Assembly (NCBI RefSeq): GCF_038502225.1
Contig: NC_091352.1
Location: 21,945,216 to 22,009,215 of the forward strand
Direction of reading: 5' to 3'
Length of the DNA: 64,000 nucleotides
From: Cherax quadricarinatus
Taxonomy: Eukaryota; Arthropoda; Malacostraca; Decapoda; Parastacidae
This document shows, one piece after another, positions 9,288 through 54,830 of the stretch. The position numbers and the translations under genes are program-made. The notes under the pieces were generated by a model. The model was not told where the DNA came from. It ran no database searches and was given only the letters and a program-made list of their open reading frames with translations. Numbering within the stretch: the first letter of the stretch is position 1; the number at the start of each line of letters is the position of its first letter.

Positions 9288-9345
9288 GTATCTTTATTGA
9301 GGAAACGTTTCGCCACACAGTGGCTTCATCAGTCCATACGTAGGA
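9288..9345 (-). ncRNA. Hammerhead-ribozyme-like motif
   Basis: Minus strand: core CTGATGA (9332-9326), stem II GCCAC/GTGGC closed by TGT, then GAAA (from 9311), a very short stem III and a predicted cleavage C at 9299 just before AATAAAG. All conserved core nucleotides of the hammerhead are present. Stem III is only two or three pairs, as known for hammerheads of Penelope-like elements. Activity is inferred, not shown. Confidence 0.65.
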
Positions 9346-9547
9346 GAAACTAGAAGAACAGGAGGAGAATGAGGTAATCAGTCCCTCAACCTTGAGGGAC
9401 CTCTCCTGCACCTCTCCTGCCATACGGTTTATAAGCTGCTTCTCCGCTCATATGCCGTATTCTATTCAAGATTGATGGACTGAACACATCGACTCAAGGT
9501 TGAGGGACTGATTACCTCATTCTCCTCCTGTTCTTCTAGTTTCTTCT

Positions 9548-9606
9548 ACGTATGGACTGATGAAGCCACTGTGTGGCGAAACGTTTCCGCAATAAAGATA
9601 CCCAAG
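9548..9606 (+). ncRNA. Hammerhead-ribozyme-like motif
   Basis: Plus strand: CTGATGA at 9557-9563, stem II GCCAC-TGT-GTGGC, GAAA at 9578-9581, predicted cleavage C near 9590, then AATAAAG at 9591. A GTAT just upstream of the core can pair with ATAC just after AATAAAG, a possible stem I. Confidence 0.65.
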
Positions 9607-9645
9607 AGTTGTACATGTGTCTAATTTATCAACATTCTTGAGCTT

Positions 9646-9972
9646 CCCCAGCGCTCGGACTTTATGCCCAAAGCTGGGGTGTGGCTCGAGAAGGATCCTG
9701 TAGTGCTTGCTGCCTTTGCACCGCCTGCTGCTATGCAGCTGCCACACCCGTCGAGCCCAATTTGGGCGGGGTTTGTGGCAGCCAAAGGTGCCTAGGTTCT
9801 CCCTCCAAACCCCTTGGGGGCGGGAAATGGGGCTAAGCCTGGGCACAGCTAGTTCCAGAAGACGAGGAGGTACGTGTACCTCCTCCCGTGGCAGACATTG
9901 ATCTAAGACATTCCCACGAAAGGGACCCAAGGCCGGGCCACCTCTTGGACAAGGCCCGAGCCGGGCGATTAT
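9646..9972. other. GC-rich segment of unknown origin
   Basis: Markedly more GC-rich than its surroundings, with a 10-bp-stem hairpin (GAGGAGGTAC, 2-bp loop) near 9865-9890. Could be a transposon 5-prime region; no protein is recognised in it. Confidence 0.35.
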
Positions 9973-10009
9973 ACCAGCGAATCTAGAACCATAACAAAAA
10001 TCTTTTCTG

Positions 10010-10090
10010 TTAGTGTGACTTTGTAAATGGTCCAAATAGGACTGCAACGTTGTCGTATGTTCCTCTCTTCTATGTGCGGGATATTTATGT
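10010..10090 (+). ncRNA. Degenerate hammerhead-like sequence
   Basis: A hairpin GGTCC-AAATA-GGACT is followed by GCAACGTTGTC, where a hammerhead would have GAAAC, and the expected CTGANGA is eroded. The order of hairpin, xAAACGTTGTC and downstream unique sequence matches a hammerhead layout with a mutated core, so probably an inactive relic. Confidence 0.35.
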
Positions 10091-10239
10091 ATCGTGTATT
10101 ACCTAAAGAAGGAAATCTACTGGAGAGGTGGAGAGAAAATATTATAGTTTTTCCATCTTGGGCAAACGTAGTTGAGTTCACGCTGAGTTCTCCTTCCTCC
10201 TCCAGAGAGTCAGAGAATATTCACCACTGGACGAGCATT

Positions 10240-10720
10240 GACTCTCCTCACAGAAAATAAAAACTTCCAAAACTGGGTAGAAGTTGATATTCTTCAACTT
10301 AATTTTGAGAATTTTTAGGTGTTCTTTAGGGGGAATGCCTGACTTATTCTTATTTTCTTTTATTTTCTTTTATTTTCACTTCCTCGGATTTTACGATTAT
10401 ATTTTGCGCATAACTCAAGAACTCCTCATCCAATCGACTTCAAATTTTCATCACCTGCGCATGGCAACAAGGACCAAATTCAAGCGCCAATCAGCATGTT
10501 CACAATCCCTATGGTGAAACTTTTTTTTTATTTTTTTTTTTTATTCGCCGGTATTCTTCCGGCCCGGGTCTTTTCCAAGTAGTGGTGACCCGGCCTTTAA
10601 CCCATTCTCAGCGTCCTAGAATGTCTTAGATAACTACCAAAATGTGACGGAACTTTCAACGTTCAGCTGCCAAGAAACAGACGGTCATGGAGAGTGAGCA
10701 AATTGATGATTTTATAAGTG
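10240..10720. other. No recognisable feature
   Basis: AT-rich; a short GC-rich GGCCCGGGTC patch near 10560 resembles a SINE scrap but is too short to assign. Confidence 0.4.
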
Positions 10721-10721
10721 A

Positions 10722-11308
10722 AATATATTTCAGTAAGTGAAATATATTTCAATAAGTAAAATATATTTCAGTGAAATATATTTCAGTAAGTTAAATATAT
10801 TTCAGTAAGGTAAATATATTTCAGTAAGTGAAATATATTTCAGCAAGTTAAATATATTTCAGTAAGTGAAATATATTTCAGTAAGTGAAATATATTTCAG
10901 TAAGTAAAATATATTTCAGTAAGTAAAATATATTTCAGTAAGTAAAATATATTTCAGTAAGTGAAATATATTTCAGTAAGATAAATATATTTCAGGGAGT
11001 AAAATATATTTCAGTAAGTAAAATATTTTTTAGTAAGTAAAGCGTATTTCAGCAAAATATATTTCAGTGAAACATATTTCACTAAGTAAAATATGTTTTA
11101 GCAAAATATATTTCAGTAATTAAAATATATTTCAGTAAAATATGTTTCAGTAAGTAAAATATATTTCAGTAAGTTGAATATATTTCAGTAAAATATATTT
11201 CGGTAAGTAAAATATATTTCAGTAAGTAAAATATATTTCAGTAAGTAAAACATATCTCAGTTATGTTATGAGTAAAATATATTTCAGTCAAATATATTTC
11301 AGTTTATC
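10722..11308. repeat. ~18-bp minisatellite with self-complementary core
   Basis: About 33 variable copies of an 18-bp unit containing AAATATATTTCAGTAAGT. The core GAAATATATTTC is its own inverse complement, so each unit can form a small cruciform. Copies differ in length and sequence, so the array is older than the 42-bp array at 7.9 kb. Confidence 0.9.
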
Positions 11309-11629
11309 TCTTCTGAACGGCTTTAATATTTAATTGCAGAAGCTGCATCTTAGAGCCAGGATAATACCAAATATATTTCTTTTACATACAGGCAAATGTC
11401 TTCATGTAATAAAATAGTCTATAAGAGGCACAATTTTCCTCAATGATTTGTTTCACTTAACACAATTTTTATACCGCCGTTGGGTGGCATTAGTTCCAAT
11501 TTGCAAATTTTATTCAAAAATATTTTAAACTGATTATATATATTACTTAAAATCAACGATATCTATTTTTTTACGGTATATGCCTACTGTTTTTCTCAGA
11601 TTTATGCTTATTCACCAGAAAAGACACTT

Positions 11630-12030
11630 GGTTTTTGGTCTAACTCGCCATTTTGGCTGGTCAGTTAACAAGAACTTATTTAAAATTAAGTTCTTTCTAA
11701 AATTTTCTCATAGGTTTAAAGATTTTTTTTCCATTTATGTTAATGTAAAAATTAATAATTTTGTACCAAAAGCACCTTAGAAAACTTGTCTAACCTTATT
11801 ATAACAAGCGCAATTTAATTTAGCCTAATCCAGCTAAATATATTTTAGATAAGTTTACAATAATTAAATAATAAACAAACACAATGAAATATATTTTTTT
11901 CGTTAGGTTCAGAATGATTTTTGTGAAATTATTGCAAATAAAAACTTTCGCTTGCCTTATTCAGCAAGAAGAGCGTTGCTATTAAAGCCAAAATAACAAA
12001 TTTTACCTATTCGGCACGACATACATACCT
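11630..12030. mobile_element. Short TIR element (GTCGTGCCGAATA family), eroded left end
   Basis: The right end ATTCGGCACGACAT and internal sequence match the better copy at 32358-32738. The left terminus has diverged. It ends only a few bases before the LINE remnant that starts at about 12037. Confidence 0.65.
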
Positions 12031-12036
12031 ACACAC

Positions 12037-14223: not shown

Positions 14224-14224
14224 G

Positions 14225-20352: not shown

Positions 20353-20355
20353 CAA

Positions 20356-21357
20356 ATGTGGCGAGAAAAGGAAAAGTTGCTTGGGTGTGGAAGTTATGGG
20401 CAAGTTGCTCTAGTGAACTGGAATGGAAAACCAGCTGCTTTGAAGAAAGCAAAATCTAAAACCTACAAAAATTGTTTTAGGAAAGAAGCTGTGATTCTTA
20501 AGGCCTTACAAGGAGCTGGTGGAGCTCCCATACTGTATGGTATGAAGACTGTGCCTCCAGTTCTGCTCGTCTCTTACAAAGGCAGTCGCCGCCTCTGTGA
20601 TATTATGGCAGACGACACCTTTGACCTTCTTCGCGTAGGTCTTGAAATTGGGTATAAATTGCGAGAAATTCACACTGCAGGTTACGTACACAGTGACCTC
20701 AAGGACGACAACGTGATGGTGGAAGGATCACCAGAAGCACCAGAGGTGAGCATCATTGATTACGGTTTGACTTGTCTCTCTGGAAAAACAATATATTTGA
20801 TCGGGAATCCAGAAACCCACCCATGGTGCGCCCCGGAAGTCCTCGACCAGCAGCCAAGTACCTATGCTTCAGATGTATTTTCTTATGGATATTTAATGAA
20901 AGGCATCCTGGAAACCAGACCTCAGCGTTATAAAATATTAGATAAACTTTTCAAGCAAGCCATGAATGCCAACCCACGCAGACGCCCAACACTAAACTTA
21001 ATGATAAAAGTGATCGGAGATTATACCACATCACCACAGAGTGATATGAACGATGCCGACCCAGACAAGAAGCTGAAGACCCCAAAGTGTATACACCGTT
21101 CCCCATGTGACAAAGTTAAAAAGAGAAAAGTCGATCCCTCATCTGACCTTGTAAAGAAACGTAAAAGTAGTCCCACACCCGAGTTTGCTAAAAAATGTAG
21201 ACGTAGCATTAAAATAAGCAAACTGAATCAAGCACCCAAACGCTACAACATGCGTCAGCGAAAGTCAACTAAACCAGGCACCCGCCATCTGCAGAAACAT
21301 GAAACTGGTCATAATTTAAGGCCTCGCTTCCTTCTCAGGAATTATGCACAGAAGTGA
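20356..21357 (+). CDS. Intronless protein kinase (copy 1)
   Basis: A 333-residue frame with a eukaryotic-type protein kinase fold predicted to transfer phosphate from ATP to protein. Visible: glycine loop GCGSYG (10-15), ATP-anchoring Lys30 in AALKKA, Glu44 in KEAVILKAL, catalytic loop HSDLKDDN (112-119, Ser replacing the usual Arg of HRD), metal-binding DYG (135-137, usually DFG) and APE (159-161). All catalytic residues are present, so activity is plausible. After about residue 235 comes a basic, probably disordered tail with KVKKRKV and KKRK (nuclear-targeting-like) and RYNMRQRK...HNLRPRF motifs. It has no intron, lies between long tandem arrays and transposons, and has a mirror-image copy at 46217-47203. 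The domains differ at about 4 residues, the tails at roughly a third. Substrate unknown; no close named family recognised. Confidence 0.9.
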   Translation: MWREKEKLLGCGSYGQVALVNWNGKPAALKKAKSKTYKNCFRKEAVILKALQGAGGAPILYGMKTVPPVLLVSYKGSRRLCDIMADDTFDLLRVGLEIGYKLREIHTAGYVHSDLKDDNVMVEGSPEAPEVSIIDYGLTCLSGKTIYLIGNPETHPWCAPEVLDQQPSTYASDVFSYGYLMKGILETRPQRYKILDKLFKQAMNANPRRRPTLNLMIKVIGDYTTSPQSDMNDADPDKKLKTPKCIHRSPCDKVKKRKVDPSSDLVKKRKSSPTPEFAKKCRRSIKISKLNQAPKRYNMRQRKSTKPGTRHLQKHETGHNLRPRFLLRNYAQK

Positions 21358-21487: not shown

Positions 21488-24400
21488 GCTGGTTTCTTTT
21501 TCTGTCTCATAAACACGCTAAGATAACAGGGATATCTTGCTACTCCTACTTACACTTTGGTCACACTTCACAGACACGCACATGCATATATATATATACA
21601 TACATCTAGGTTTTTCTCCTTTTTCTAAATAGCTCTTGTTCTTTTTTATTTCTTCTATTGTCCATGGGGAAGTGGAAAAGAATCTTTCCTCCGTAAGCCA
21701 TGCGTGTCGTATGAGGCGACTAAAATGCCGGGAGCAATGGGCTAGTAACCCCTTCTCCTGTATACAATTACTAAAAAAGAGAAGAAGAAAAACTTTATAA
21801 AACTGGGTTGCTTAAATGTGCGTGGATGTAGTGCGGATGACAAGAAACAGATGATTGCTGATGTTATGAATGAAAAGAAGTTGGATGTCCTGGCCCTAAG
21901 CGAAACAAAGCTGAAGGGGGTAGGAGAGTTTCAGTGGGGGGAAATAAATGGGATTAAATCTGGAGTATCTGAGAGAGTTAGAGCAAAGGAAGGGGTAGCA
22001 GTAATGTTAAATGATCAGTTATGGAAGGAGAAAAGAGAATATGAATGTGTAAATTCAAGAATTATGTGGATTAAAGTAAAGGTTGGATGCGAGAAGTGGG
22101 TCATAATAAGCGTGTATGCACCTGGAGAAGAGAGGAATGCAGAGGAGAGAGAGAGATTTTGGGAGATGTTAAGTGAATGTATAGGAGCCTTTGAACCAAG
22201 TGAGAGAGTAATTGTGGTAGGGGACTTGAATGCTAAAGTAGGAGAAACTTTTAGAGAGGGTGTGGTAGGTAAGTTTGGGGTGCCAGGTGTAAATGATAAT
22301 GGGAGCCCTTTGATTGAACTTTGTATAGAAAGGGGTTTAGTTATAGGTAATACATATTTTAAGAAAAAGAGGATAAATAAGTATACACGATATGATGTAG
22401 GGCGAAATGACAGTAGTTTGTTGGATTATGTATTGGTAGATAAAAGACTGTTGAGTAGACTTCAGGATGTACATGTTTATAGAGGGGCCACAGATATATC
22501 AGATCACTTTCTAGTTGTAGCTACACTGAGAGTAAAAGGTAGATGGGATACAAGGAGAATAGAAGCATCAGGGAAGAGAGAGGTGAAGGTTTATAAACTA
22601 AAAGAGGAGGCAGTTAGGGTAAGATATAAACAGCTATTGGAGGATAGATGGGCTAATGAGAGCATAGGCAATGGGGTCGAAGAGGTATGGGGTAGGTTTA
22701 AAAATGTAGTGTTAGAGTGTTCAGCAGAAGTTTGTGGTTACAGGAAAGTGGGTGCAGGAGGGAAGAGGAGCGATTGGTGGAATGATGATGTAAAGAGAGT
22801 AGTAAGGGAGAAAAAGTTAGCATATGAGAAGTTTTTACAAAGTAGAAGTGATGCAAGGAGGGAAGAGTATATGGAGAAAAAGAGAGAAGTTAAGAGAGTG
22901 GTGAAGCAATGTAAAAAGAGAGCAAATGAGAGAGTGGGTGAGATGTTATCAACAAATTTTGTTGAAAATAAGAAAAAGTTTTGGAGTGAGATTAACAAGT
23001 TAAGAAAGCCTAGAGAACAAATGGATTTGTCAGTTAAAAATAGGAGAGGAGAGTTATTAAATGGAGAGGTAGAGGTATTGGGAAGATGGAAGGAATATTT
23101 TGAGGAATTGTTAAATGTTGATGAAGATAGGGAAGCTGTGATTTCGTGTATAGGGCAAGGAGGAATAACATCTTGTAGGAGTGAGGAAGAGCCAGTTGTG
23201 AGTGTGGGGGAAGTTCGTGAGGCAGTAGGTAAAATGAAAGGGGGTAAGGCAGCCGGGATTGATGGGATAAAGATAGAAATGTTAAAAGCAGGTGGGGATA
23301 TAGTTTTGGAGTGGTTGGTGCAATTATTTAATAAATGTATGGAAGAGGGTAAGGTACCTAGGGATTGGCAGAGAGCATGCATAGTTCCTTTGTATAAAGG
23401 CAAAGGGGATAAAAGAGAGTGCAAAAATTATAGGGGGATAAGTCTGTTGAGTGTACCTGGTAAAGTGTATGGTAGAGTTATAATTGAAAGAATTAAGAGT
23501 AAGACGGAGAATAGGATAGCAGATGAACAAGGAGGCTTTAGGAAAGGTAGGGGGTGTGTGGACCAGGTGTTTACAGTGAAACATATAAGTGAACAGTATT
23601 TAGATAAGGCTAAAGAGGTCTTTGTGGCATTTATGGATTTGGAAAAGGCGTATGACAGGGTGGATAGGGGGGCAATGTGGCAGATGTTGCAAGTGTATGG
23701 TGTAGGAGGTAGGTTACTGAAAGCAGTGAAGAGTTTTTACGAGGATAGTGAGGCTCAAGTTAGAGTATGTAGGAAAGAGGGAAATTTTTTCCCAGTAAAA
23801 GTAGGCCTTAGACAAGGATGTGTGATGTCACCGTGGTTGTTTAATATATTTATAGATGGGGTTGTAAGAGAAGTAAATGCGAGGGTCTTGGCAAGAGGCG
23901 TGGAGTTAAAAGATAAAGAATCACACACAAAGTGGGAGTTGTCACAGCTGCTCTTTGCCGATGACACTGTGCTCTTGGGAGATTCTGAAGAGAAGTTGCA
24001 GAGATTGGTGGATGAATTTGGTAGGGTGTGCAAAAGAAGAAAATTAAAGGTGAATACAGGAAAGAGTAAGGTTATGAGGATAACAAAAAGATTAGGTGAT
24101 GAAAGATTGAATATCAGATTGGAGGGAGAGAGTATGGAGGAGGTGAACGTATTCAGATATTTGGGAGTGGACGTGTCAGCGGATGGGTCTATGAAAGATG
24201 AGGTGAATCATAGAATTGATGAGGGAAAAAGAGTGAGTGGTGCACTTAGGAGTCTGTGGAGACAAAGAACTTTGTCCTTGGAGGCAAAGAGGGGAATGTA
24301 TGAGAGTATAGTTTTACCAACGCTCTTATATGGGTGTGAAGCGTGGGTGATGAATGTTGCAGCGAGGAGAAGGCTGGAGGCAGTGGAGATGTCATGTCTG

Positions 24401-24972
24401 AGGGCAATGTGTGGTGTGAATATAATGCAGAGAATTCGTAGTTTGGAAGTTAGGAGGAGGTGCGGGATTACCAAAACTGTTGTCCAGAGGGCTGAGGAAG
24501 GGTTGTTGAGGTGGTTCGGACATGTAGAGAGAATGGAGCGAAACAGAATGACTTCAAGAGTGTATCAGTCTGTAGTGGAAGGAAGGCGGGGTAGGGGTCG
24601 GCCTAGGAAGGGTTGGAGGGAGGGGGTAAAGGAGGTTTTGTGTGCGAGGGGCTTGGACTTCCAGCAGGCATGCGTGAGCGTGTTTGATAGGAGTGAATGG
24701 AGACAAATGGTTTTTAATACTTGACGTGCTGTTGGAGTGTGAGCAAAGTAACATTTATGAAGGGATTCAGGGAAACCGGCAGGCCGGACTTGAGTCCTGG
24801 AGATGGGAAGTACAGTGCCTGCACTCTGAAGGAGGGGTGTTAATGTTGCAGTTTAAAAACTGTAGTGTAAAGCACCCTTCTGGCAAGACAGTGATGGAGT
24901 GAATGATGGTGAAAGTTTTTCTTTTTCGGGCCACCCTGCCTTGGTGGGAATCGGCCGGTGTGATAATAAAAA
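21488..24972 (+). mobile_element. RTE-type LINE, full-length copy 1
   Basis: Begins GCTGGTTTCTTTTTCTGTC, exactly as copy 2 does at 34872, and ends in the tail GTGTGATAATAAAAAAA. It is about 3.5 kb. It inserted into arm 1 of the inverted duplication; the uninterrupted counterpart is at about 46070-46090. No clear target-site duplication seen. Confidence 0.9.
21818..24724 (+). CDS. RTE LINE endonuclease-reverse transcriptase (intact)
   Basis: Encodes at least 968 residues. N-terminal apurinic-type endonuclease: SETK with Glu29, VVGDLNAKVGE near 120, DYVLVDKR and SDHFLVV near 200. Reverse transcriptase: AAGIDGIKIEMLK, NYRGISLLSVPGKVY, QGGFRKGRGCVDQV, FMDLEKAYDRVDR (motif A Asp), LRQGCVMSPWLFN and LFADDTVLL (catalytic Asp715-Asp716), then the C-terminal LYGCEAWV, RWFGHVERM and GRGRPRKGW blocks typical of the RTE clade. 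The protein nicks target DNA and copies its own RNA there. Position 21818 is GTG; the open frame extends upstream to 21749 and adds the expected KLGCLNVRG strand without any ATG. The first in-frame ATG (21851) would remove that strand, so the true start is unclear. No disruption seen. Confidence 0.92.
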   Translation: MRGCSADDKKQMIADVMNEKKLDVLALSETKLKGVGEFQWGEINGIKSGVSERVRAKEGVAVMLNDQLWKEKREYECVNSRIMWIKVKVGCEKWVIISVYAPGEERNAEERERFWEMLSECIGAFEPSERVIVVGDLNAKVGETFREGVVGKFGVPGVNDNGSPLIELCIERGLVIGNTYFKKKRINKYTRYDVGRNDSSLLDYVLVDKRLLSRLQDVHVYRGATDISDHFLVVATLRVKGRWDTRRIEASGKREVKVYKLKEEAVRVRYKQLLEDRWANESIGNGVEEVWGRFKNVVLECSAEVCGYRKVGAGGKRSDWWNDDVKRVVREKKLAYEKFLQSRSDARREEYMEKKREVKRVVKQCKKRANERVGEMLSTNFVENKKKFWSEINKLRKPREQMDLSVKNRRGELLNGEVEVLGRWKEYFEELLNVDEDREAVISCIGQGGITSCRSEEEPVVSVGEVREAVGKMKGGKAAGIDGIKIEMLKAGGDIVLEWLVQLFNKCMEEGKVPRDWQRACIVPLYKGKGDKRECKNYRGISLLSVPGKVYGRVIIERIKSKTENRIADEQGGFRKGRGCVDQVFTVKHISEQYLDKAKEVFVAFMDLEKAYDRVDRGAMWQMLQVYGVGGRLLKAVKSFYEDSEAQVRVCRKEGNFFPVKVGLRQGCVMSPWLFNIFIDGVVREVNARVLARGVELKDKESHTKWELSQLLFADDTVLLGDSEEKLQRLVDEFGRVCKRRKLKVNTGKSKVMRITKRLGDERLNIRLEGESMEEVNVFRYLGVDVSADGSMKDEVNHRIDEGKRVSGALRSLWRQRTLSLEAKRGMYESIVLPTLLYGCEAWVMNVAARRRLEAVEMSCLRAMCGVNIMQRIRSLEVRRRCGITKTVVQRAEEGLLRWFGHVERMERNRMTSRVYQSVVEGRRGRGRPRKGWREGVKEVLCARGLDFQQACVSVFDRSEWRQMVFNT

Positions 24973-34871: not shown

Positions 34872-37800
34872 TGCTGGTTTCTTTTTCTGTCTCATAAACA
34901 CGCTAAGATAACAGGGATATCTTGCTACTCCTACTTACACTTTGGTCACACTTCACAGACACGCACATGCATATATATATATACATACATCTAGGTTTTT
35001 CTCTTTTTTCTAAATAGCTCTTGTTCTTTTTTATTTCTTCTATTGTCCATGGGGAAGTGGAAAAGAATCTTTCCTCCGTAAGCCATGCGTGTCGTATGAG
35101 GCGACTAAAATGCCGGGAGCAATGGGCTAGTAACCCCTTCTCCTGTATACAATTACTAAAAAAGAGAAGAAGAAAAACTTTATAAAACTGGGTTGCTTAA
35201 ATGTGCGTGGATGTAGTGCGGATGACAAGAAACAGATGATTGCTGATGTTATGAATGAAAAGAAGTTGGATGTCCTGGCCCTAAGCGAAACAAAGCTGAA
35301 GGGGGTAGGAGAGTTTCAGTGGGGGGAAATAAATGGGATTAAATCTGGAGTATCTGAGAGAGTTAGAGCAAAGGAAGGGGTAGCAGTAATGTTAAATGAT
35401 CAGTTATGGAAGGAGAAAAGAGAATATGAATGTGTAAATTCAAGAATTATGTGGATTAAAGTAAAGGTTGGATGCGAGAAGTGGGTCATAATAAGCGTGT
35501 ATGCACCTGGAGAAGAGAGGAATGCAGAGGAGAGAGAGAGATTTTGGGAGATGTTAAGTGAATGTATAGGAGCCTTTGAACCAAGTGAGAGAGTAATTGT
35601 GGTAGGGGACTTGAATGCTAAAGTAGGAGAAACTTTTAGAGAGGGTGTGGTAGGTAAGTTTGGGGTGCCAGGTGTAAATGATAATGGGAGCCCTTTGATT
35701 GAACTTTGTATAGAAAGGGGTTTAGTTATAGGTAATACATATTTTAAGAAAAAGAGGATAAATAAGTATACACGATATGATGTAGGGCGAAATGACAGTA
35801 GTTTGTTGGATTATGTATTGGTAGATAAAAGACTGTTGAGTAGACTTCAGGATGTACATGTTTATAGAGGGGCCACAGATATATCAGATCACTTTCTAGT
35901 TGTAGCTATACTGAGAGTAAAAGGTAGATGGGATACAAGGAGAATAGAAGCATCAGGGAAGAGAGAGGTGAAGGTTTATAAACTAAAAGAGGAGGCAGTT
36001 AGGGTAAGATATAAACAGCTATTGGAGGATAGATGGGCTAATGAGAGCATAGGCAATGGGGTCGAAAAGGTATGGGGTAGGTTTAAAAATGTAGTGTTAG
36101 AGTGTTCAGCAGAAGTTTGTGGTTACAGGAAAGTGGGTGCAGGAGGGAAGAGGAGCGATTGGTGGAATGATGATGTAAAGAGAGTAGTAAGGGAGAAAAA
36201 GTTAGCATATGAGAAGTTTTTACAAAGTAGAAGTGATGCAAGGAGGGAAGAGTATATGGAGAAAAAGAGAGAAGTTAAGAGAGTGGTGAAGCAATGTAAA
36301 AAGAGAGCAAATGAGAGAGTGGGTGAGATGTTATCAACAAATTTTGTTGAAAATAAGAAAAAGTTTTGGAGTGAGATTAACAAGTTAAGAAAGCCTAGAG
36401 AACAAATGGATTTGTCAGTTAAAAATAGGAGAGGAGAGTTATTAAATGGAGAGTTAGAGGTATTGGGAAGATGGAAGGAATATTTTGAGGAATTGTTAAA
36501 TGTTGATGAAGATAGGGAAGCTGTGATTTCGTGTATAGGGCAAGGAGGAATAACATCTTGTAGGAGTGAGGAAGAGCCAGTTGTGAGTGTGGGGGAAGTT
36601 CGTGAGGCAGTAGGTAAAATGAAAGGGGGTAAGGCAGCCGGGATTGATGGGATAAAGATAGAAATGTTAAAAGCAGGTGGGGATATAGTTTTGGAGTGGT
36701 TGGTGCAATTATTTAATAAATGTATGGAAGAGGGTAAGGTACCTAGGGATTGGCAGAGAGCATGCATAGTTCCTTTGTATAAAGGCAAAGGGGATAAAAG
36801 AGAGTGCAAAAATTATAGGGGGATAAGTCTGTTGAGTGTACCTGGTAAAGTGTATGGTAGAGTTATAATTGAAAGAATTAAGAGTAAGACGGAGAATAGG
36901 ATAGCAGATGAACAAGGAGGCTTTAGGAAAGGTAGGGGGTGTGTGGACCAGGTGTTTACAGTGAAACATATAAGTGAACAGTATTTAGATAAGGCTAAAG
37001 AGGTCTTTGTGGCATTTATGGATTTGGAAAAGGCGTATGACAGGGTGGATAGGGGGGCAATGTGGCAGATGTTGCAAGTGTATGGTGTAGGAGGTAGGTT
37101 ACTGAAAGCAGTGAAGAGTTTTTACGAGGATAGTGAGGCTCAAGTTAGAGTATGTAGGAAAGAGGGAAATTTTTTCCCAGTAAAAGTAGGCCTTAGACAA
37201 GGATGTGTGATGTCACCGTGGTTGTTTAATATATTTATAGATGGGGTTGTAAGAGAAGTAAATGCGAGGGTTTTGGCAAGAGGCGTGGAGTTAAAAGATA
37301 AAGAATCACACACAAAGTGGGAGTTGTCACAGCTGCTCTTTGCTGATGACACTGTGCTCTTGGGAGATTCTGAAGAGAAGTTGCAGAGATTGGTGGATGA
37401 ATTTGGTAGGGTGTGCAAAAGAAGAAAATTAAAGGTGAATACAGGAAAGAGTAAGGTTATGAGGATAACAAAAAGATTAGGTGATGAAAGATTGAATATC
37501 AGATTGGAGGGAGAGAGTATGGAGGAGGTGAACGTATTCAGATATTTGGGAGTGGACGTGTCAGCGGATGGGTCTATGAAAGATGAGGTGAATCATAGAA
37601 TTGATGAGGGAAAAAGAGTGAGTGGTGCACTTAGGAGTCTGTGGAAACAAAGAACTTTGTCCTTGGAGGCAAAGAGGGGAATGTATGAGAGTATAGTTTT
37701 ACCAACGCTCTTATATGGGTGTGAAGCGTGGGTGATGAATGTTGCAGCGAGGAGAAGGCTGGAGGCAGTGGAGATGTCATGTCTGAGGGCAATGTGTGGT

Positions 37801-38358
37801 GTGAATATAATGCAGAGAATTCGTAGTTTGGAAGTTAGGAGGAGGTGCGGGATTACCAAAACTGTTGTCCAGAGGGCTGAGGAAGGGTTGTTGAGGTGGT
37901 TCGGACATGTAGAGAGAATGGAGCGAAACAGAATGACTTCAAGAGTGTATCAGTCTGTAGTGGAAGGTAGGCGGGGTAGGGGTCGGCCTAGGAAGGGTTG
38001 GAGGGAGGGGGTAAAGGAGGTTTTGTGTGCGAGGGGCTTGGACTTCCAGCAGGCATGCGTGAGCGTGTTTGATAGGAGTGAATGGAGACAAATGGTTTTT
38101 AATACTTGACGTGCTGTTGGAGTGTGAGCAAAGTAACATTTATGAAGGGATTCAGGGAAACCGGCAGGCCGGACTTGAGTCCTGGAGATGGGAAGTACAG
38201 TGCCTGCACTCTGAAGGAGGGGTGTTAATGTTGCAGTTTAAAAACTGTAGTGTAAAGCACCCTTCTGGCAAGACAGTGATGGAGTGAATGATGGTGAAAG
38301 TTTTTCTTTTTCGGGCCACCCTGCCTTGGTGGGAATCGGCCGGTGTGATAATAAAAAT
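34872..38358 (+). mobile_element. RTE-type LINE, full-length copy 2
   Basis: Starts at the same base of the element as copy 1 and ends GTGTGATAATAAAAATAATATAT. Nearly identical to copy 1 along its length. Copy 3 lies immediately downstream in the opposite orientation, tail to tail. Confidence 0.92.
35203..38109 (+). CDS. RTE LINE endonuclease-reverse transcriptase (intact, copy 2)
   Basis: Same 968-codon frame as 21818-24724, uninterrupted, with all endonuclease (SETK, GDLN, SDH) and reverse-transcriptase (MDLEKAYD, FADD) residues. I count four amino-acid differences from copy 1: Thr/Ile in VVA(T/I)LRV, Glu/Lys in VE(E/K)VWG, Val/Leu in GE(V/L)EV and Arg/Lys in LW(R/K)QRT. The start is again GTG with an open upstream extension and no ATG. 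Two intact, almost identical copies imply recent transposition and possible present activity. Confidence 0.92.
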   Translation: MRGCSADDKKQMIADVMNEKKLDVLALSETKLKGVGEFQWGEINGIKSGVSERVRAKEGVAVMLNDQLWKEKREYECVNSRIMWIKVKVGCEKWVIISVYAPGEERNAEERERFWEMLSECIGAFEPSERVIVVGDLNAKVGETFREGVVGKFGVPGVNDNGSPLIELCIERGLVIGNTYFKKKRINKYTRYDVGRNDSSLLDYVLVDKRLLSRLQDVHVYRGATDISDHFLVVAILRVKGRWDTRRIEASGKREVKVYKLKEEAVRVRYKQLLEDRWANESIGNGVEKVWGRFKNVVLECSAEVCGYRKVGAGGKRSDWWNDDVKRVVREKKLAYEKFLQSRSDARREEYMEKKREVKRVVKQCKKRANERVGEMLSTNFVENKKKFWSEINKLRKPREQMDLSVKNRRGELLNGELEVLGRWKEYFEELLNVDEDREAVISCIGQGGITSCRSEEEPVVSVGEVREAVGKMKGGKAAGIDGIKIEMLKAGGDIVLEWLVQLFNKCMEEGKVPRDWQRACIVPLYKGKGDKRECKNYRGISLLSVPGKVYGRVIIERIKSKTENRIADEQGGFRKGRGCVDQVFTVKHISEQYLDKAKEVFVAFMDLEKAYDRVDRGAMWQMLQVYGVGGRLLKAVKSFYEDSEAQVRVCRKEGNFFPVKVGLRQGCVMSPWLFNIFIDGVVREVNARVLARGVELKDKESHTKWELSQLLFADDTVLLGDSEEKLQRLVDEFGRVCKRRKLKVNTGKSKVMRITKRLGDERLNIRLEGESMEEVNVFRYLGVDVSADGSMKDEVNHRIDEGKRVSGALRSLWKQRTLSLEAKRGMYESIVLPTLLYGCEAWVMNVAARRRLEAVEMSCLRAMCGVNIMQRIRSLEVRRRCGITKTVVQRAEEGLLRWFGHVERMERNRMTSRVYQSVVEGRRGRGRPRKGWREGVKEVLCARGLDFQQACVSVFDRSEWRQMVFNT

Positions 38359-40054: not shown

Positions 40055-40228
40055 TCTCCAGACTGAGGGACTGACCACCTCAAAACTTTAAGGGTGATGG
40101 ACTGATTACATCGTCTTCAAGTATCTTCTGCTTCTATCAACTTTTCTGTACTCGATTGAAGAAGCCTACTGTGTAGGCGAAACGTTTCGAAATAAAGATA
40201 CCTAACTGTTGCATGTGTGTCTTACCTA
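40055..40228 (+). mobile_element. Half of a foldback element with ribozyme-like end
   Basis: Plus strand carries GCCTAC-TGT-GTAGGC, GAAACGTTTC and AATAAAG as in the hammerhead family, but the CTGATGA core is altered (CGATTGA). The opposite inverted half is absent. Confidence 0.6.
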
Positions 40229-44125: not shown

Positions 44126-44369
44126 TAAAGATCTTTATCCTTTAAGCATGAACAAAATCATTCTCTACAAAATTAGCCAGTCATCACAAGGGCTCGACAT
44201 TTAGGGGTCACCATCCACTCCCCAAACAGATGAACCTCAGGCCTCATCAGAGTTGTAAAGTAAAAGGACACAAGTGCAACTAATGTGACATTTTATTGTG
44301 GCAACGTTTCGCTCTCCAGGATACAAGCCGATACAAACAGTATATGTGACGAATGGTTTTGAAAACCGA

Positions 44370-44478
44370 CAAGTTGAAGAAATGAGACACTTATGCAACA
44401 CATGGGAATCTTTATTGAAGAAACGTTTCTTCAATAAAGATTCCCATGTGTTGCATAAGTGTCTCAATTCTTCAAACA
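44370..44478. repeat. Perfect palindrome from collapsed foldback element
   Basis: Two ~50-bp arms, each the AATAAAGATTCCCATGTG end of the ribozyme-bearing family, meet at GAAACGTTTC with the interior lost. Confidence 0.85.
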
Positions 44479-44595: not shown

Positions 44596-45506
44596 AAAAG
44601 TTGTAGTAGTAATACAATATGGTAGAGCAATTAATTCGTACATGAGTAAAAGGATATAAAAGCTATTACTTGGGTAACATAAAAATAGGTTGGACAAATA
44701 TAGACTGGATAGAGAAGGCCTGTTTCAGTGTTCACTCTCTGTAATATGCTTTGTGTAGTATAACAGGAGAGACTATGTGATGGCAGGGTTTACTGTCTCC
44801 AGGAGGATTATCGCTAAGACTTCAGAGATGGTGAAGCTGCCGTTGTTTTGTTTAATTGTATTCGAAACAGCGATCAGTGCTGATTCGAGGCACTTGCGTC
44901 TGCGGAAATTAGTTTCTTTGATCACTAATTGGGCGTCCCTATATTTGTCCAACCTATTTTTATGTTACCCAAGTAATAGCTTTTATATCCTTTTACTCAT
45001 GTACGAATTAATTGCTCTACTACTACTACTACTACTACTACTACCCTCTGTATCCATATACTGTTTGTATCGACTTGACAAAGCTCCTGGAGAGTGAAAC
45101 GTTGCCACAATAAAATGTCACATTAGTTGCACTTGTGTCCTTTTACTTTACATATTGTCGGTAATTCTACCAACATTATTACCATCAGAGTTGGGCAAAG
45201 AGAGAGGCCAACCTCTTTGACCGAAGACACATCAAGGCTGTAATCCAGGAAATGGCATAGATTTGAATGATATAGAGCAAAGAGCTCTCCTCCTTCCCCG
45301 CAAAGAGAACAGTATAAGGGCCAGGGTCAGCAACAACAACCAGGTACAAGATTGAGCCTGGTTCGGCTCCTTACTATGGACCATGTCCGACAGGGGTCAT
45401 CACAAGTCGCTTTCACTGAGAGTCTGGGAGAGGGTAGTGATGAACACATCACTTCAGTAAGAACTACTATCATCTTTACTGTTAATATAATTATGACTAC
45501 CATAAA

Positions 45507-45790
45507 GGTAATAAATGGTATAAAATACCGACACAATGGAAATATAAACACAAATGCAGTATAATGTGATCCTTTATTGACAACGTTTCACCCACATAGT
45601 GGGCTTTCTCAAGTCACACACGGATCTACCTGGGGTTGGAAGGTACGAGAGTACCTCAACATTCTGACTATAAATACTCTCGTACCTTCCAACCCCAGGT
45701 AGATCCGTGTGTGACTTGAGAAAGCCCACTGTGTGGGTGAAACGTTGTCAATAAAGGATCACATTATACTGCATTTGTGTTTATATTACC
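45507..45790. mobile_element. Foldback element with 14-bp target duplication
   Basis: A 284-bp insertion flanked by identical ATGACTACCATAAA at 45493-45506 and 45791-45804; arm 1 has a single copy of this 14-mer at 25644-25657 with no insertion. Left and right halves are inverse complements (GATCCTTTATTGACAACGTTTCACCCAC and inverse separated by an ~50-bp centre). Each end has CCCAC-T(A/G)T-GTGGG, GAAACGTTGTC and AATAAAGG. The first core element reads CTTGAGA rather than CTGATGA. Confidence 0.9.
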
Positions 45791-46216
45791 ATGACTACCA
45801 TAAACATATTTGATAAAATTAATGATGATTTTCTTATTACGCAAATATAAAAATAAAAAATATAACTAATCACTAATTTAGCAACACATCCATTAATAAC
45901 TATCTTAGCAAAGGACACCATACTCTGTCACCATCCTTCTCTTAGTCTACCATATTCAGTCACCATACTTCTCTTAGTCTACCATACTCTGTCACCATCC
46001 TTCTCTAAGTCTACCATTCACTTCCTTTATTTTTTTTCCAGTCTTGTTGTTATTGGTATTGTCTTTTATTGGCTATACTTCTCTCACTCACTGTTTCAAT
46101 AAAATAAATAATATAAAATAAAAAATAAATAAATTTCCTTCTTTAACATAAAATTTTCTATATTTTACTCACCATTTTAAAAGATTTTTCCTTTTAGATC
46201 ATGAACTTTCGTAAAT

Positions 46217-47203
46217 TCACTCCTGTACATACTTCCTGAGAGGGTACCGAGGCCTTAAATTGTGATCAATTTGATGCATTTGCAAATCACGGGTCCCAAA
46301 TTTAGAGAACTTTCGCTGACGCATGTTATACCGTTCGGGTGCTTGATTGACTTTGCGTGTTTTAATGCGGTTTGGAATGGAAGTGTAGCTACCTCTACAT
46401 TTTTTAGCAACTTCGGTTGTGGGACTACGTTTGCGTTTCTTTACGAAGTCAGGTGTGGAACGGTGTATACACTTTGGGGTCTTCAGCTTCTTGTCTGGGT
46501 CGGCATCGTTCATATCACTCTGTGGTGATGTAGTATAATCTTCGATTACTTTTATCATAAAGTTTAGTGTTGGGCGTCTGCGTGGGTTGGCATTCATGGC
46601 TTGCTTGAAAAGTTTATCTAATATTTTATAACGCTGAGGTCTGGTTTCCAGGATGCCTTTCATTAAATATCCATAAGAAAATACATCTGAAGCATAGGTA
46701 CTTGGCTGCTGGTCGAGGACTTCCGGGGCGTACCATGGGTGGGTTTCTGGATTCCCGATCAAATATATTGTTTTTCCAGAGAGACAAGTCAAACCGTAAT
46801 CAATGATGCTCACCTCTGGTGCTTCTGGTGATCCTTCCACCATCACGTTGTCGTCCTTGAGGTCACTGTGTACGTAACCTGCAGTGTGAATTTCTCGCAA
46901 TTTATACCCAATTTCAAGACCTACGCGAAGAAGGTCAAAGGAGTCGTCCGCCATAATATCACAGAGGCGGCGACTGCCTTTGTAAGAGACGAGCAGAACT
47001 GGAGGCACAGTCTTCATACCATACAGTATGGGAGCTCCACCAGCTCCTTGTAAGGCCTTAAGAATCACAGCTTCTTTCCTAAAACAATTTTTGTAGGTTT
47101 TAGATTTTGCTTTCTTCAAAGCAGCTGGTTTTCCATTCCAGTTCACTAGAGCAACTTGCCCATAACTTCCACACCCTAGCAACTTTTCCTTTTCTCGCCA
47201 CAT
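46217..47203 (-). CDS. Intronless protein kinase (copy 2)
   Basis: A 328-residue frame on minus with the same kinase architecture as copy 1: GCGSYG loop, Lys30, Glu44, HSDLKDDN, DYG and APE. Within the kinase domain I see only four replacements versus copy 1 (Thr88Ser, Cys158Tyr which restores WYAPE, a Leu/Phe and a Gly/Glu near 220). From about residue 245 the tails diverge sharply: TPDFVKKRKRSPTTEVAKKC, then SYTSIPNRIKTRKVNQAPER and HNLRPRYPLRKY. About 150 bases of upstream sequence, including the nine-codon upstream frame, are also near identical. Both copies open and complete suggests retained function. Substrate and pathway unknown. Confidence 0.9.
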   Translation of the reverse strand: MWREKEKLLGCGSYGQVALVNWNGKPAALKKAKSKTYKNCFRKEAVILKALQGAGGAPILYGMKTVPPVLLVSYKGSRRLCDIMADDSFDLLRVGLEIGYKLREIHTAGYVHSDLKDDNVMVEGSPEAPEVSIIDYGLTCLSGKTIYLIGNPETHPWYAPEVLDQQPSTYASDVFSYGYLMKGILETRPQRYKILDKLFKQAMNANPRRRPTLNFMIKVIEDYTTSPQSDMNDADPDKKLKTPKCIHRSTPDFVKKRKRSPTTEVAKKCRGSYTSIPNRIKTRKVNQAPERYNMRQRKFSKFGTRDLQMHQIDHNLRPRYPLRKYVQE

Positions 47204-47206
47204 TTG

Positions 47207-50345: not shown

Positions 50346-50407
50346 ACATAATATCTTTATTTACTATGAGTACATAAGTCCCTTGTTATGCTGAACTTTT
50401 CGGGCAA

Positions 50408-50600
50408 ATTAGGTCAATTTTGTCCCAGGATGCGACCCACACCAATCGACTAACACCCAGGTACCCATTTTACTGATGTGTGAACAGAGACAACCGGTGT
50501 AAGGAAACATGTCCGAAGTTTCCACCCCTTCGCCGGGAATCGAACCCGGACCCTCACCGTGTGAATCGAGAGCTTTTGCCACCAGGCCAAGGGACCAGGT
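50408..50600 (-). mobile_element. tRNA-derived SINE
   Basis: Minus strand: CCTTGGCCTGGTGGCAAAAG (A-box region), GGGTTCGATTCCCGGCG (B box) and GGGTGTTAGTCGATTGGTG. Same family as 6608-6845 but with a different tail. It lies inside the outer tandem-repeat zone of arm 2 and has no counterpart in arm 1. Repeat units resume after it. Confidence 0.8.
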
Positions 50601-50844
50601 AGTGATGTTTAGGTTGATAATGGTAGTGATATTCACATTGCTCATGGTAGTGATGTTTACATTGATCATTGCAGCCATTTTTTCTATCCATTCATAGCGC
50701 ACTATCCACAACTATGCCACTATCGACCACTATGCTACTATCAACTATTGCACTATTCCTATACCCCCTTCTATGCAATGACTCTCTACTATGACTCTGT
50801 CTCTATCTACTTCGATAGCAAAGGAACTGAATCTGATGACATTA

Positions 50845-51840
50845 GAGGAAACCTGAACAAGAGAAAACATGATAGCAAACAAAATTCTTGAGTAGATAGG
50901 GATAGACTGAGAGGCGAGAACGTGGTACATGAGGGCATAGCTGGAAGTTGAAACCCCAGATAAGTTATAGGGATGTCAGGAAGTAGTTCTTCAGTCTCTG
51001 GGTGACTAGGAAGTGGAATAATCTTGAGGAAGATGTGGAGGAAGCAGGCCCCATACATAGTTTACGAGCAGGTACTACAGTGACCACAAGGCTTGGGAGG
51101 AACACATCTAACAAACAGGAAGATGAGAGGTCTGACCACATACAGGTATGTACGGTACACAACGTCATTTATTATTCAGAAAACTGTTGTCTATCGATCA
51201 TTAACATTTCCTGAATCCCACACAGCAGCGCTCATCTCCGAGATTTTTCAGGAAGTAATGAAAGGATTCACCACACCAGCTTCTAAAATTTATTTCATAG
51301 CAGGAGATGATAGTGTCAATGTTTTCAAATGAATTACAGGGACAGGATACAACAGTTTGCCATGTTTTCTATCTTCACTTAGACTGGTTTTCCATGAATT
51401 GTATTCTGAAGCAGAGAGTAATATAAGACATGACTGTGAGCCACTTCAGACACTCTTCCAGCCTGCGGTAAGAACAAAATGAGCTACCAAAACACACTCA
51501 TTCTGAATGTGCCTAACCACTGGAATATAACTTAATGCTAGATCGCAGATGTGACAAAAAATTCAAAAATATATTTTAGATAACACTCGCCTACAATCAT
51601 TGGATTGAAGTAAATAGAAGTATATTGCCACGTTCTTTTTTTTTAATATATTCCACAAAGCAACTATATGACTTAATGCAAGAAACTGTTTTGTCGCAGA
51701 AATACTGCCTTAAGAACAAAATTTGAAACACTTCACCAACAAAGCTTTGAAAGATTCAAGATTTTCACGCTAGGATAACACACCATCAGCTTCCAAAATG
51801 TCACTGTTAACTAGGTACGAGTTACACCACTGACTACAAC
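50845..51840 (+). repeat. Old direct duplication, copy A2 (partner 6300-7950)
   Basis: Same order of blocks as A1, but with a single GAATGTGCCTAACC at 51497-51510 where A1 has 18 units, and one GTTAACTAGGTACGAG...ACAACTC unit at about 51801-51842 where A1 has 15. Confidence 0.85.
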
Positions 51841-51894
51841 TCGATACTCAGCAGATGTAATACTTAGACAAATGTAATACTTATCTACAAAGCA

Positions 51895-52347
51895 ATAGGC
51901 AGGTTCTAGCTTCAAATTATATGCCAGTTAGCCTACCCTCCATTGTGGGAAAATTGTTGGACCCAATAATTCTCTAGAGAACGCGAAGCCACCTTGGAAG
52001 ATATAAATTGGTCAGTAAATCTCGGCACAGTTTTACAACTAGGGCGGTCTTGCCATTAACTTTTTTCGTTAAGGTATTTGATGAGGTAGATCATGGAAAT
52101 AGATTTCATTTTGTGAATATGGAGTTCAGTAAGGCTTTGATAAGAGTTCCACACAGGAGATTGTCAAGGAAGACGTAAGAGGAGGGGATTACTGTCTTTG
52201 TCGAGGCGTGGTTAACAGACAGGTAACAGAGAGTTTGCATAAATGGGGAGAAATCAGAGTGGGGACGAGTCACAAGCGGTGTTCCACAGGGGGTCAGTGT
52301 TGGGCCCTTTGTTATTCACAACATACATAAACGACATAGATGAGGGA
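51895..52347 (+). pseudogene. LINE reverse-transcriptase fragment, frameshifted
   Basis: Pieces match the LINE at 30.3-31.9 kb: SSNYMPVSLPSIVGKLLDPI, MEFSKAL (catalytic region damaged), RVCINGEKSEWG and SGVPQG(G)SVLGPL. Several frameshifts. Confidence 0.75.
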
Positions 52348-52361
52348 AATTTTAATTGTTT

Positions 52362-53130
52362 TTCTATGTACCGACAGAGAGAGTCAGATTTTTTTCTATG
52401 TACATAGTTTTCTTGAAGCAACTGAGAATGTTTCACTTGATTGGGGTTAAACATTCAAAGTCGATGTATTTTCCTAAAAGAAACTGGGTTGAGTAACTGC
52501 AATATCAGGGAAACATACTTCTTCTCCAAGGAGAGAAAAGGACATTCTTATATATGTATTTTTTAATGTTAATTATTCTTCATCAAGTTAGGCTTGATTT
52601 AATTAGCGTAGGACAACCTGTAATTCCATACATTTTTGCCCTCGCGTAACGAAATTAAAAAATAATTGATGAGATTTCGAGATTGTATTTCTAAAACAAT
52701 TAAACAGTGTCATTTGATGCATTTTCACTTTTCTGTGATTGGGTTATCTAATAGAGTCATCAACTTATGTTTGCCCCAGCACAGTTCCTCCGGTGATCAT
52801 AGGTGAAACCAAAAGAACAGAAATTATTAAGATTACGCCTGTCTAATTTTTCTGTAGTTTTGCGCTAAAACTTTAAAATTTGTGTGGAAGCAATGTGCTG
52901 TTGAGTGTGATCTGAAGGACGTAAAGCCGGAAAAGCAAGTCTGAATGAAATGGTACTTGCATGATAATAGGAGTTTAAAGAGAGAGAATTAGCACTTCTG
53001 AGGGAGATTAACTTTGAATTGGCATCTGTGAGATGCGCGGCCATCCACTGCTTCCCCAAGGAGGTGTGATTCAAGAGTTTGTTTTCCCTCAAAAGTCAGT
53101 CTAGAACATGGTTGTACATGCTGCTCATCT
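52362..53130 (+). repeat. Old direct duplication, copy B2 (partner 41625-42475)
   Basis: Diverged copy with the same order of blocks as B1; no coding content recognised. Confidence 0.75.
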
Positions 53131-53204
53131 ACCAGAGGGAGACATGTGATAAATGGTTTAAAACCGACAAGCTGAAGATTGAGACACTTACGCAACATAT
53201 GGGA

Positions 53205-53262
53205 ATCTTTATTGAAGAAACGTTTCGTCACACAGTGGCTTCATCAGTCCAACACAAATCAG
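53205..53262 (-). ncRNA. Hammerhead-ribozyme-like motif
   Basis: Minus strand: CTGATGA (53247-53241), stem II GCCAC-TGT-GTGAC with the last pair weakened, GAAA from 53226, then CGTTTCTTC and AATAAAG. Complete core. Confidence 0.6.
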
Positions 53263-53617
53263 AAGGGTGTCAGGAGAGGGGGAGTTCGAGGTAATCAGTC
53301 CCTCAGCCTGGAGTCGATGTGTTTAGTCCATCAATCTTGTAGAAAGTATGGCATAGGGCCGTAGAAGTGGCTTGTATACTGTAGTCAGGTGAGGCGAAGC
53401 AGGAGGAGGCGGGGTCATAGTGGTACCATCCACTAGTCGAAGTCGGTCATCGTCCAAAGGTTGGACAAGGTTGAAAAATTCTTTGTATCAAGATCCCATG
53501 ATGTTGCAGTGTCTGACAGATGTGATAAATGGTTTAAAACCGACAATTTGAAGACTGAGACACTTATGCAATACATGGGAATCTTTATTGAAGAAACGTT
53601 TCGCCATACAGTGGCTG

Positions 53618-53675
53618 CTTTGTAATGGACTGACGAAACGCTTCCACTGTGTGGCGAAACATTTCATCAATAAAG
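53618..53675 (+). ncRNA. Hammerhead-ribozyme-like motif
   Basis: Plus strand: CTGACGA at 53630-53636 (allowed core, seventh position variable), stem II CCAC-TGT-GTGG, GAAA at 53656-53659, then CATTTCATC and AATAAAG. Confidence 0.6.
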
Positions 53676-53879
53676 ATGCCAATATATTGCATATGTGTCT
53701 CAATTAGAGGGAGACATATTGAGTTTTTGTTGGGGGAACAGGGTATTTGTGGTTATTGGGCTGGGAGGGGGAGGGCGGAAGGAGGCAGAGTCACCTAATA
53801 TACATTACCTTCAACAGACAAATCTACGACCATCCCTGCAACTGCTTTCCACTACCAGCACCATTGTCCCTCGCGACCA

Positions 53880-53952
53880 ACACCACCACCCCCCAGGCGC
53901 TGTATAATCATCCGGGTTTAGCGCTTCCCCCTTGATTATAATAATAATAATA
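53880..53952. mobile_element. Short SINE-like tail with (AAT)n
   Basis: GGCGCTGTATAATCATCCGG, then GGTTTAGCGCTTCCCCCTTG and a TAA/AAT run: the layout of a SINE tail, but no promoter boxes seen. Confidence 0.4.
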
Positions 53953-54477
53953 TGGGAAGAGTTTGGTAGAGACAAAGAGTGTTTGGTGGACATTGATGGA
54001 GTGTTTGCGATGGGCAGGGTATCCTGGATAGAAGTAAACAATGTCAGTCTTCTAATGGAGAGAAGATCAGATGAAGAGAGTCCGGTGTTAGAGAATTTGG
54101 GACATAATGGGAAAGAGATAGTAGAGAATTACCAGTTACACATTTATATATTACTATTAGTAACACCGCTATTGTTTTTAATTAAGATTAAATCTTGTTG
54201 GCTCGGGCTCAAGAAATCATATATAAGTATAAAATATGTTTAAGATCTCGTAATTGATTTTTATATAAGAAAATATGGGAGGAAGAGTGTTAACGGAGCA
54301 TTAAAGAACGATGACTGGAGGAGCCGGGTTTAATGCGAGGAAAGGGATGGAGATGGCGGAGGGTAAAACGAAAAAAAAATTATACCTACACGTTTATAGA
54401 AGTAATTTATGTGATCATAATCTATAAGTGCACCTGGTTCACACAGAATATACCATTTTCTTAAGAATGTAAAGTCA
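53953..54477. other. No recognisable feature
   Basis: AT-rich; open frames are short and have no recognised domain. Confidence 0.4.
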
Positions 54478-54830
54478 GTAATGACTGAGACACTTAAGCA
54501 ACATATGGAAATCTTTATTGAAGAAACGTTTCGCCACACAGTGGCTTCATCAGTCCATACAAAGGAGAATGGTGAAGAACAGGAGGAGTTTGAGGTAATC
54601 AGTCCCTAAGCCTTGAGTCGATGTAATCAGTCCTTCAATCTTGTAAGGAATACAGCATATGTGCGGAGTGACTTGTATACTATAAACAGGTGAGTTGAAG
54701 CAGTCGTAGGTGGTATAACACTTGAGAAATCCCAATGCGGAAGTAGGTCTTCGTCCAAAGGTTGGACAAGTATTGAAGAATTCCTTTTATCAATATCCCA
54801 TCAAGAAATCATGGGATCTTGACACAAATG
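54478..54830. mobile_element. Half of a ribozyme-bearing foldback element
   Basis: Left end as in 53140 plus about 300 bases of the same interior including GTCCAAAGGTTGGAC; the right inverted end is missing. Confidence 0.7.
54508..54568 (-). ncRNA. Hammerhead-ribozyme-like motif
   Basis: Minus strand: CTGATGA (54553-54547), stem II GCCAC-TGT-GTGGC, GAAA from 54532, CGTTTCTTC, AATAAAG. Complete core and perfect stem II. Confidence 0.65.

Follow-up and report, generated by a model that had tools for sequence, protein, structure and literature searches.

Foldback repeats in the crayfish Cherax quadricarinatus as probable insertions of Penelope-like elements with a dimer-type hammerhead motif

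A 64,000-nucleotide stretch of the Cherax quadricarinatus genome (GCF_038502225.1, NC_091352.1, 21,945,216 to 22,009,215 of the forward strand; hereafter the window) contains short foldback repeats in which an earlier note recognized five complete hammerhead ribozyme cores, each with a minimal stem III and a cleavage site at the C directly before AATAAAG. This raises the question of what these foldbacks are and whether the motif that they carry could act as a ribozyme. All five loci were found to be genuine members of a single repeat family, and both the hammerhead descent and the resemblance to the short-stem-III type of Penelope-like elements (PLEs) were supported. We favor the reading, with a probability of roughly 0.85, that the repeats are insertions of PLEs and of short relatives consisting only of pseudo-long terminal repeats (pLTRs), each with a dimer-type hammerhead motif.

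The register of the motif was examined by the pairing of its stems. In the corrected fold, the four bases preceding CTGATGA pair with the four following the cut as stem I (TGGA:TCC), which encloses CUGAUGA, an extra A, stem II (GCCAC-UGU-GUGGC) and GAA-ACGU-U, with the cut predicted immediately after GAAACGTT. Among 21 hand-picked distinct copies, stem I was 81.5% paired in this register, with two-sided changes at all four pairs. The register of the earlier note, a monomeric hammerhead with a minimal stem III that is cut directly before AATAAAG, gave 38.1% pairing of stem I in the same copies; its closing pair was present in 1 of 21, and the second stem III pair (15.2-16.2) formed in 2 of 21. 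An A-U pair (15.1-16.1) could be drawn in that register in 10 of the 18 countable sequences; however, subfamilies A2 and B have no C preceding AATAAAG. Because stem I and stem III pairing largely fail across the 21 sequences, this register and its cut site were rejected as extremely improbable, and the predicted cut was moved 5 bases upstream. In a larger alignment of 132 model-found copies (72 distinct), which had been fitted to the structure beforehand, stem I was 79.0% paired and the whole structure 85.5%, compared to 74.9% in shuffled alignments and at most 50.2% when the structure was slid; two-sided changes occupied 74 cells, compared to 22.7 in shuffles. Stem I types include TGGA:TCCT, AAGA:TCTT, TCGA:TCGA, TGAC:GTC and TGGC:GCCA. 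Both stems, I and II, and the core pair 3-8 covary, which backs the hammerhead motif.

The core itself was strongly conserved. Among the 72 distinct rows, counting those with a letter at the position, we observed U4 in 71 of 71, G5 in 68 of 71, A6 in 72 of 72 and A9 in 71 of 72, followed by G12 (70 of 72), A13 (72), A14 (70), A15.1 (72) and U16.1 (72); these figures are partly built in and so count for less in favor of a hammerhead, because the patterns used for fetching fixed CTGATGAA or TGANGAA and GAAACGTT. Base 17 was U in 64 rows, C in 7 and A in 1, and the extra A after A9 was found in 71 of 72. A CUGANGA and GAAA core flanked by stems I and II, as found here, characterizes the minimal hammerhead of PLEs. 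In a further diverged subfamily (L012 1334-1378, L031 894-939 and L058 664-708), stem I is TGTA:TACA, the core is mostly TGATAA, and GAAACGTC or GAGACGTC precedes the predicted cut, hence GUC rather than GUU. Positions 3 and 8 read CG in 46 of the 72 rows, UA in 13, UG in 5 and otherwise in 6, with a gap in 2. Families D and E provide a better test of this core pair, as the patterns used to find them left both positions free. All of the first 100 listed of 3,777 family D matches had U3 and A8; the first 100 listed of 18,111 family E matches had U3 throughout and A8 in 95, with U8 in 4 and G8 in 1. An earlier D pattern, anchored one base off, gave 29 matches with A8 in all and C3 in one. The core pair has been exchanged from C3-G8 to U3-A8 across these whole families. 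Natural covariation of this kind has been on record since 2011, and hammerheads with U3-A8 show activity in vitro (PMC3088659; this and all papers cited below are represented by parts of their text); the exchange therefore supports function and is not new in kind.

In intact copies, GAA-ACGU-U leaves no loop available, and ACGU is a palindrome, so that stem III could form only between two copies; the minimal stem III of the earlier note could not be upheld, and its description of the cores as complete was not supported. Dimer-type hammerheads are recognized by a helix III that a monomer cannot form, together with a palindrome and copies in tandem. All of these features are present here, with tandem units at 372 and 378 bp in family A and at 2,584 bp in family D. 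PLE hammerheads without helix III have been described, and their cutting as dimers requires the palindrome and tandem copies (PMC6155905, PMC7761336 and PMC6466107, in part). In folding calculations, monomers of B, D and E formed both stems, I and II, enclosing two 8-base strands left unpaired, while for A2 such a fold lay 0.8 kcal/mol above the minimum. The motif probably acts only in pairs. In two tandem hammerheads of a single RNA, the ACGU palindromes would pair with each other as a common stem III, and cutting after ACGUU would split the tandem units; from the sequence, we infer such self-cleavage.

The motif is very abundant. The strict A-type pattern CTGATGAA-N5-TGT-N5-GAAACGTT gave 28,163 and 27,937 matches on the two strands of the genome (56,100), compared to 0 and 0 for the reversed control, and TGANGAA-N13-GAAACGTT gave 33,270 and 32,856, compared to 6 and 8. 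A looser pattern that specified neither the extra A nor ACGTT discriminated far less well (141 matches versus 53 for the control).

The connection to PLEs rests in part on family D, which was located via direct repeats at 2,584 bp. These repeats contain a 758-amino-acid open reading frame (ORF) with matches to RVT_1 (E 2.3e-10) and GIY-YIG (E 6.4e-7), and a PLE-type ORF, with a reverse transcriptase and a C-terminal GIY-YIG endonuclease, was found in this family only. In a protein search with this ORF, 59 of 79,876 first-look candidates were scored, and these 59 were 98 to 100% identical and free of internal stops. Among ten fetched D loci, two of which (L067 and L074) represent the same element, the motif stood before the ORF in 8 and after it in all 10; where it precedes the ORF, the ATG begins 100 nucleotides (nt) beyond the predicted cut. 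All 20 motifs found there were of the U3-A8 form (position 8 was searched as A or G). Locus L068 carries one D repeat with a broken frame and another with a long tandem insert. As judged from its sequence, family D is an intact autonomous PLE with reverse transcriptase (RT) and GIY-YIG domains. An ORF of this kind would not fit into the short A-type units, and no autonomous partner of A or E turned up, although no separate search for one was made; most copies in the genome are pLTR-only units without an ORF.

The layout of the inserts is that of PLEs. Neighboring copies are predominantly arranged in the -+ orientation: in family A within 700 bp, we counted -+ 26, ++ 8, -- 4 and +- 0; in family D within 6 kb, from 93 of 100 listed places, -+ 22, -- 4, ++ 2 and +- 0; and in family E -+ 29 and one each of the other three. 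One arm carried a tail in 21 of 28 head-to-head pairs in the fetched loci, both arms in 2 and neither in 5; at least 2 of these 28 pairs combine copies from different subfamilies. Arms of A-type units (n = 93, some counted twice, since loci L023 and L025 overlap) had their 3′ ends at unit positions 45 to 52 in 35 cases, at 75 to 85 in 32 and elsewhere in 26, so that the two main ends lie about 46 or 77 nt past the predicted cut, without or with a tail of about 30 nt. The 5′ ends fell at 245 to 263 in 26 of the 93, about 30 nt beyond a TATA-like box at unit positions 216 to 220. A shared flanking word of 11 to 17 bp was present at 10 of 26 pairs and a shorter one at 4. Within the window, the A2 insert is flanked by AGAGGGAGACAT (53134-53145 and 53706-53717), the D insert by the 14-bp duplication ATGACTACCATAAA (45493-45506 and 45791-45804), and the A1 insert, whose arms end at unit positions 82 and 50, by a 13-bp pair with one mismatch, CATTCTTAAGCTT (9214-9226) and CATTCTTGAGCTT (9633-9645). 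The pLTRs, the inverted pLTR, the optional tail and the target duplications are all hallmarks of PLEs. A head-to-head PLE insertion therefore explains the foldbacks.

A near-perfect palindrome was observed at 44345-44475 of the window, formed by two A2 arms that abut at GAAACGTTTC, with stem II missing; comparable arm junctions are AGATCT in family D (L061 and L066) and AAGCTT in family E (L070). These sequences suggest that palindromes join the two arms. In the mechanism that we envisage, the RNA would start about 30 nt past the TATA box, the PLE enzyme would cut both target strands, each end would prime reverse transcription within the RNA, and short sequences, either palindromic or complementary, would serve to join the two cDNA arms head to head. 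Family A may use D-like enzymes, since the ends and duplications are common to both. A 2013 paper on Adineta vaga favors self-priming for inverted repeats (PMC3846280, in part); because the arms have differing 3′ ends, two separate primings fit better here. In the PLE PAc of Anolis, according to parts of PMC11167929, both strands are cut and extended, and RT starts internally.

The A-type units could instead be metazoan retrozymes, short nonautonomous tandem repeats that spread via ribozyme-cut and ligated RNA circles. The A-type units do carry a type I hammerhead, and their tandem lengths of 372 and 378 bp lie within the 170- to 400-nt range given for retrozymes (PMC7229834, in part). However, retrozymes are said to be free of promoters of their own (PMC7761336, in part), whereas the A-type units have a TATA-like box and 5′ ends clustered after it; their 3′ ends, tails and head-to-head layout are also of the PLE type, and breakpoints at the cut site, as counted in family E, are few. 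We regard a retrozyme origin as improbable.

Several results weigh against the PLE and hammerhead interpretation. Two of five covariation measures in the larger alignment were not clearly above shuffles: pairs with a two-sided change numbered 9 versus 7.5 (87 of 500 shuffles equally high), and pair types numbered 21 versus 19.9 (183 of 500 as high); pair types in the 21-copy alignment were not clearly above shuffles either (84 of 500). Within stem I of the larger alignment, the outermost pair failed in 38 of 61 cells and the other three in 10 of 70, 4 of 70 and 5 of 71. Pairing of ACGU in the folded dimers cost 6.8 kcal/mol in D and 7.7 kcal/mol in E relative to the best dimer fold; in dimers of A2 and B, stem I gave way to the ten-base palindrome GAAACGUUUC. 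No shared flanking word was present at 12 of the 26 pairs. Rfam yielded no matches at gathering thresholds across the window; at E ≤ 10, it likewise gave no hammerhead for 9100-9800, 53000-54800 or five loci drawn from families A, B, D and E (L053, L015, L067, L070 and L072); miRNA-type matches at these foldbacks stayed below the curated cutoffs. The earlier note had named the lack of a covariance-model match above threshold as the first half of what would refute it, and no such match was obtained. This negative result is not decisive, because PLE hammerheads without helix III exist and because a model built on the corrected register found 132 matches at E ≤ 0.001 in 192,004 bases of fetched loci, a count that includes its training copies and loci most of which had originally been fetched with similar patterns. 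Rfam's current models miss such hammerheads.

If cut RNAs served as templates, arms should often begin at the cut. This was checked in one family (E) against one control position (+4). Breakpoints exactly at the cut numbered 26, alongside 18,111 motif-bearing copies, and 14 were counted at the control position. Twenty of the 26 have CAA upstream; 5 of these 20 were fetched, and all 5 proved to be inverted junctions at TGGC/GCCA, the stem I complement. Three of the six other breakpoints were also fetched and represented an internal deletion, a breakpoint after PLE-like sequence and another junction. Once inverted junctions were removed, family E showed no excess at the cut site (6 versus 14 at +4), a further point against a role of cutting in these insertions. 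Breakpoints at the cut are few, and there is therefore no sign that cut ends are templates. This parallels PAc, which uses mainly unprocessed RNA as its substrate and whose hammerhead mutants remain capable of insertion (PMC11167929, in part). The same results would also suit a fossil motif, or one retained as a structural RNA element that serves in protein binding or priming, in which the hammerhead fold was kept and cutting was lost: the monomer has no stem III, family E lacks a breakpoint excess, and in PAc cutting requires the PAc protein (PMC11167929, in part). Yet the bases required for cutting are conserved in the young family D, and C3-G8 has turned into a pair of known activity rather than decayed, which makes a loss of cutting rather unlikely. 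For the hammerheads of these PLEs, since cut ends do not appear to be insertion templates, the ribozyme might cut tandem read-through transcripts apart. We tentatively propose, as a possibility and not as the expected outcome, that a young intact PLE family and a larger second family have fixed U3-A8, that the hammerheads of the abundant pLTR-only family can work only in pairs, and that splitting of read-through transcripts frees or limits the ORF-bearing unit, with no part in making the templates or circles proposed for retrozymes.

Within the window, 13 rows were obtained at E ≤ 0.1 (R1 matches), including members beyond the five noted loci (Table 1). Three of those five (at 9292, 9551 and 54513) have an intact core with intact stems, and a fourth (at 53207) could be retained with a single stem II mismatch. 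The fifth (at 53624) cannot be considered a complete core, because additional bases lie between core and stem II and GAAACATT replaces GAAACGTT.

Table 1. Copies and inserts of the repeat family in the window (predicted cuts given where placed)
Feature	Position	Strand	Evidence
Head-to-head A1 insert, tailed minus arm and untailed plus arm	9227..9632		Inverted arms of 143 nt, 98% complementary
Intact hammerhead core, A1; predicted cut between 9304 and 9303	9292..9338	-	R1 73.8 bits
Intact hammerhead core, A1; predicted cut between 9585 and 9586	9551..9597	+	R1 73.2 bits
Subfamily B hammerhead core (stem I TCGA:TCGA, U3-G8)	40150..40197	+	R1 64.0 bits
Weak remnants	44291-44332 and 44409-44440		R1 rows at E ≤ 0.1
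Family E hammerhead core (U3-A8, one stem I mismatch)	45069..45115	+	R1 51.2 bits
Head-to-head family D insert	45507..45790		Sequence; pair and shared flanking word
Family D hammerhead core (U3-A8)	45572..45618	-	R1 55.6 bits
Family D hammerhead core (U3-A8)	45710..45756	+	R1 57.6 bits
Head-to-head A2 insert, minus arm tailed and longer than one unit, plus arm short	53146..53705		Arms 53145-53616 and 53618-53704
A2 hammerhead core, one stem II mismatch; predicted cut between 53219 and 53218	53207..53253	-	R1 66.6 bits
Copy with stem II and GAAACGTT, without CTGANGA core	53583..53626	-	R1 40.1 bits
Disrupted core (extra bases before stem II, GAAACATT)	53624..53675	+	R1 35.4 bits
Intact A-type hammerhead core; predicted cut between 54525 and 54524	54513..54559	-	R1 71.1 bits; arm 54483-54801

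Other features were noted in passing. The window holds two near-identical ORFs of 991 amino acids of a LINE-like retrotransposon (21749-24724 and 35134-38109), two similar inverted ORFs that by eye resemble protein kinases and lie beside microsatellite-rich stretches (20353-21357 on the plus strand and 46217-47206 on the minus strand), and an ORF at 7878-8708 that consists largely of a repeated LTKYESYTTDYNST unit and is likely a minisatellite. Near the E insert of L070, a tRNA-family match (2058-2129, minus strand, 37.8 bits; gathering threshold 29) marks a tRNA gene or a tRNA-derived repeat.

A literature search of partial coverage returned no report of a crayfish hammerhead ribozyme and, for crustacean retrozymes or PLE hammerheads, only PMC7229834, which in the parts seen mentions crustaceans in passing; with coverage this partial, an earlier description of the family may exist. 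Dimer-type hammerheads of PLEs are already known; here, they occur with a large U3-A8 branch and in very high numbers. The closest relatives are the minimal type I hammerheads of PLEs that cleave as dimers (Cervera & de la Pena 2014; Lunse, Weinberg & Breaker 2017), compared here via parts of the citing papers PMC7761336, PMC6466107 and PMC6155905. The core, the lack of helix III, the palindrome, the tandem copies and the location in pLTRs are common to both, whereas the crayfish repeats differ in their very large copy number, in two families with fixed or nearly fixed U3-A8, in GUU before the cut and in the extra A after A9. A viroid hammerhead core with an extra nucleotide is known from a title cited in PMC6155905. 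A 2020 review spoke of the activity and role of PLE hammerheads as "still a mystery" (PMC7761336, in part). Because the C. quadricarinatus genome combines an intact autonomous PLE family, whose copies are nearly identical and bear the motif, with natural compensatory variants and related copies in the tens of thousands, it makes activity, dimer dependence and effects on mobility testable. With metazoan retrozymes (PMC7229834, in part), the repeats have unit length, tandem copies and a type I hammerhead in common, and in their predicted dimer dependence they resemble those of amphibians; the TATA-like box and the PLE-type ends set them apart. Compared with Penelope/Poseidon-type PLEs, as described in parts of PMC3846280 (Adineta vaga) and PMC11167929 (PAc), the repeats share the ORF with RT and GIY-YIG domains, the pLTR-ORF-pLTR order, the inverted head-to-head pLTR, the tail of about 30 bp on one arm, palindromic junctions, the TATA box and flanking duplications, while they consist mostly of ORF-less pLTR-only units, and their flanking duplications are mostly 11 to 14 bp, in contrast to 8 to 9 bp in two A. 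vaga cases (PMC3846280).

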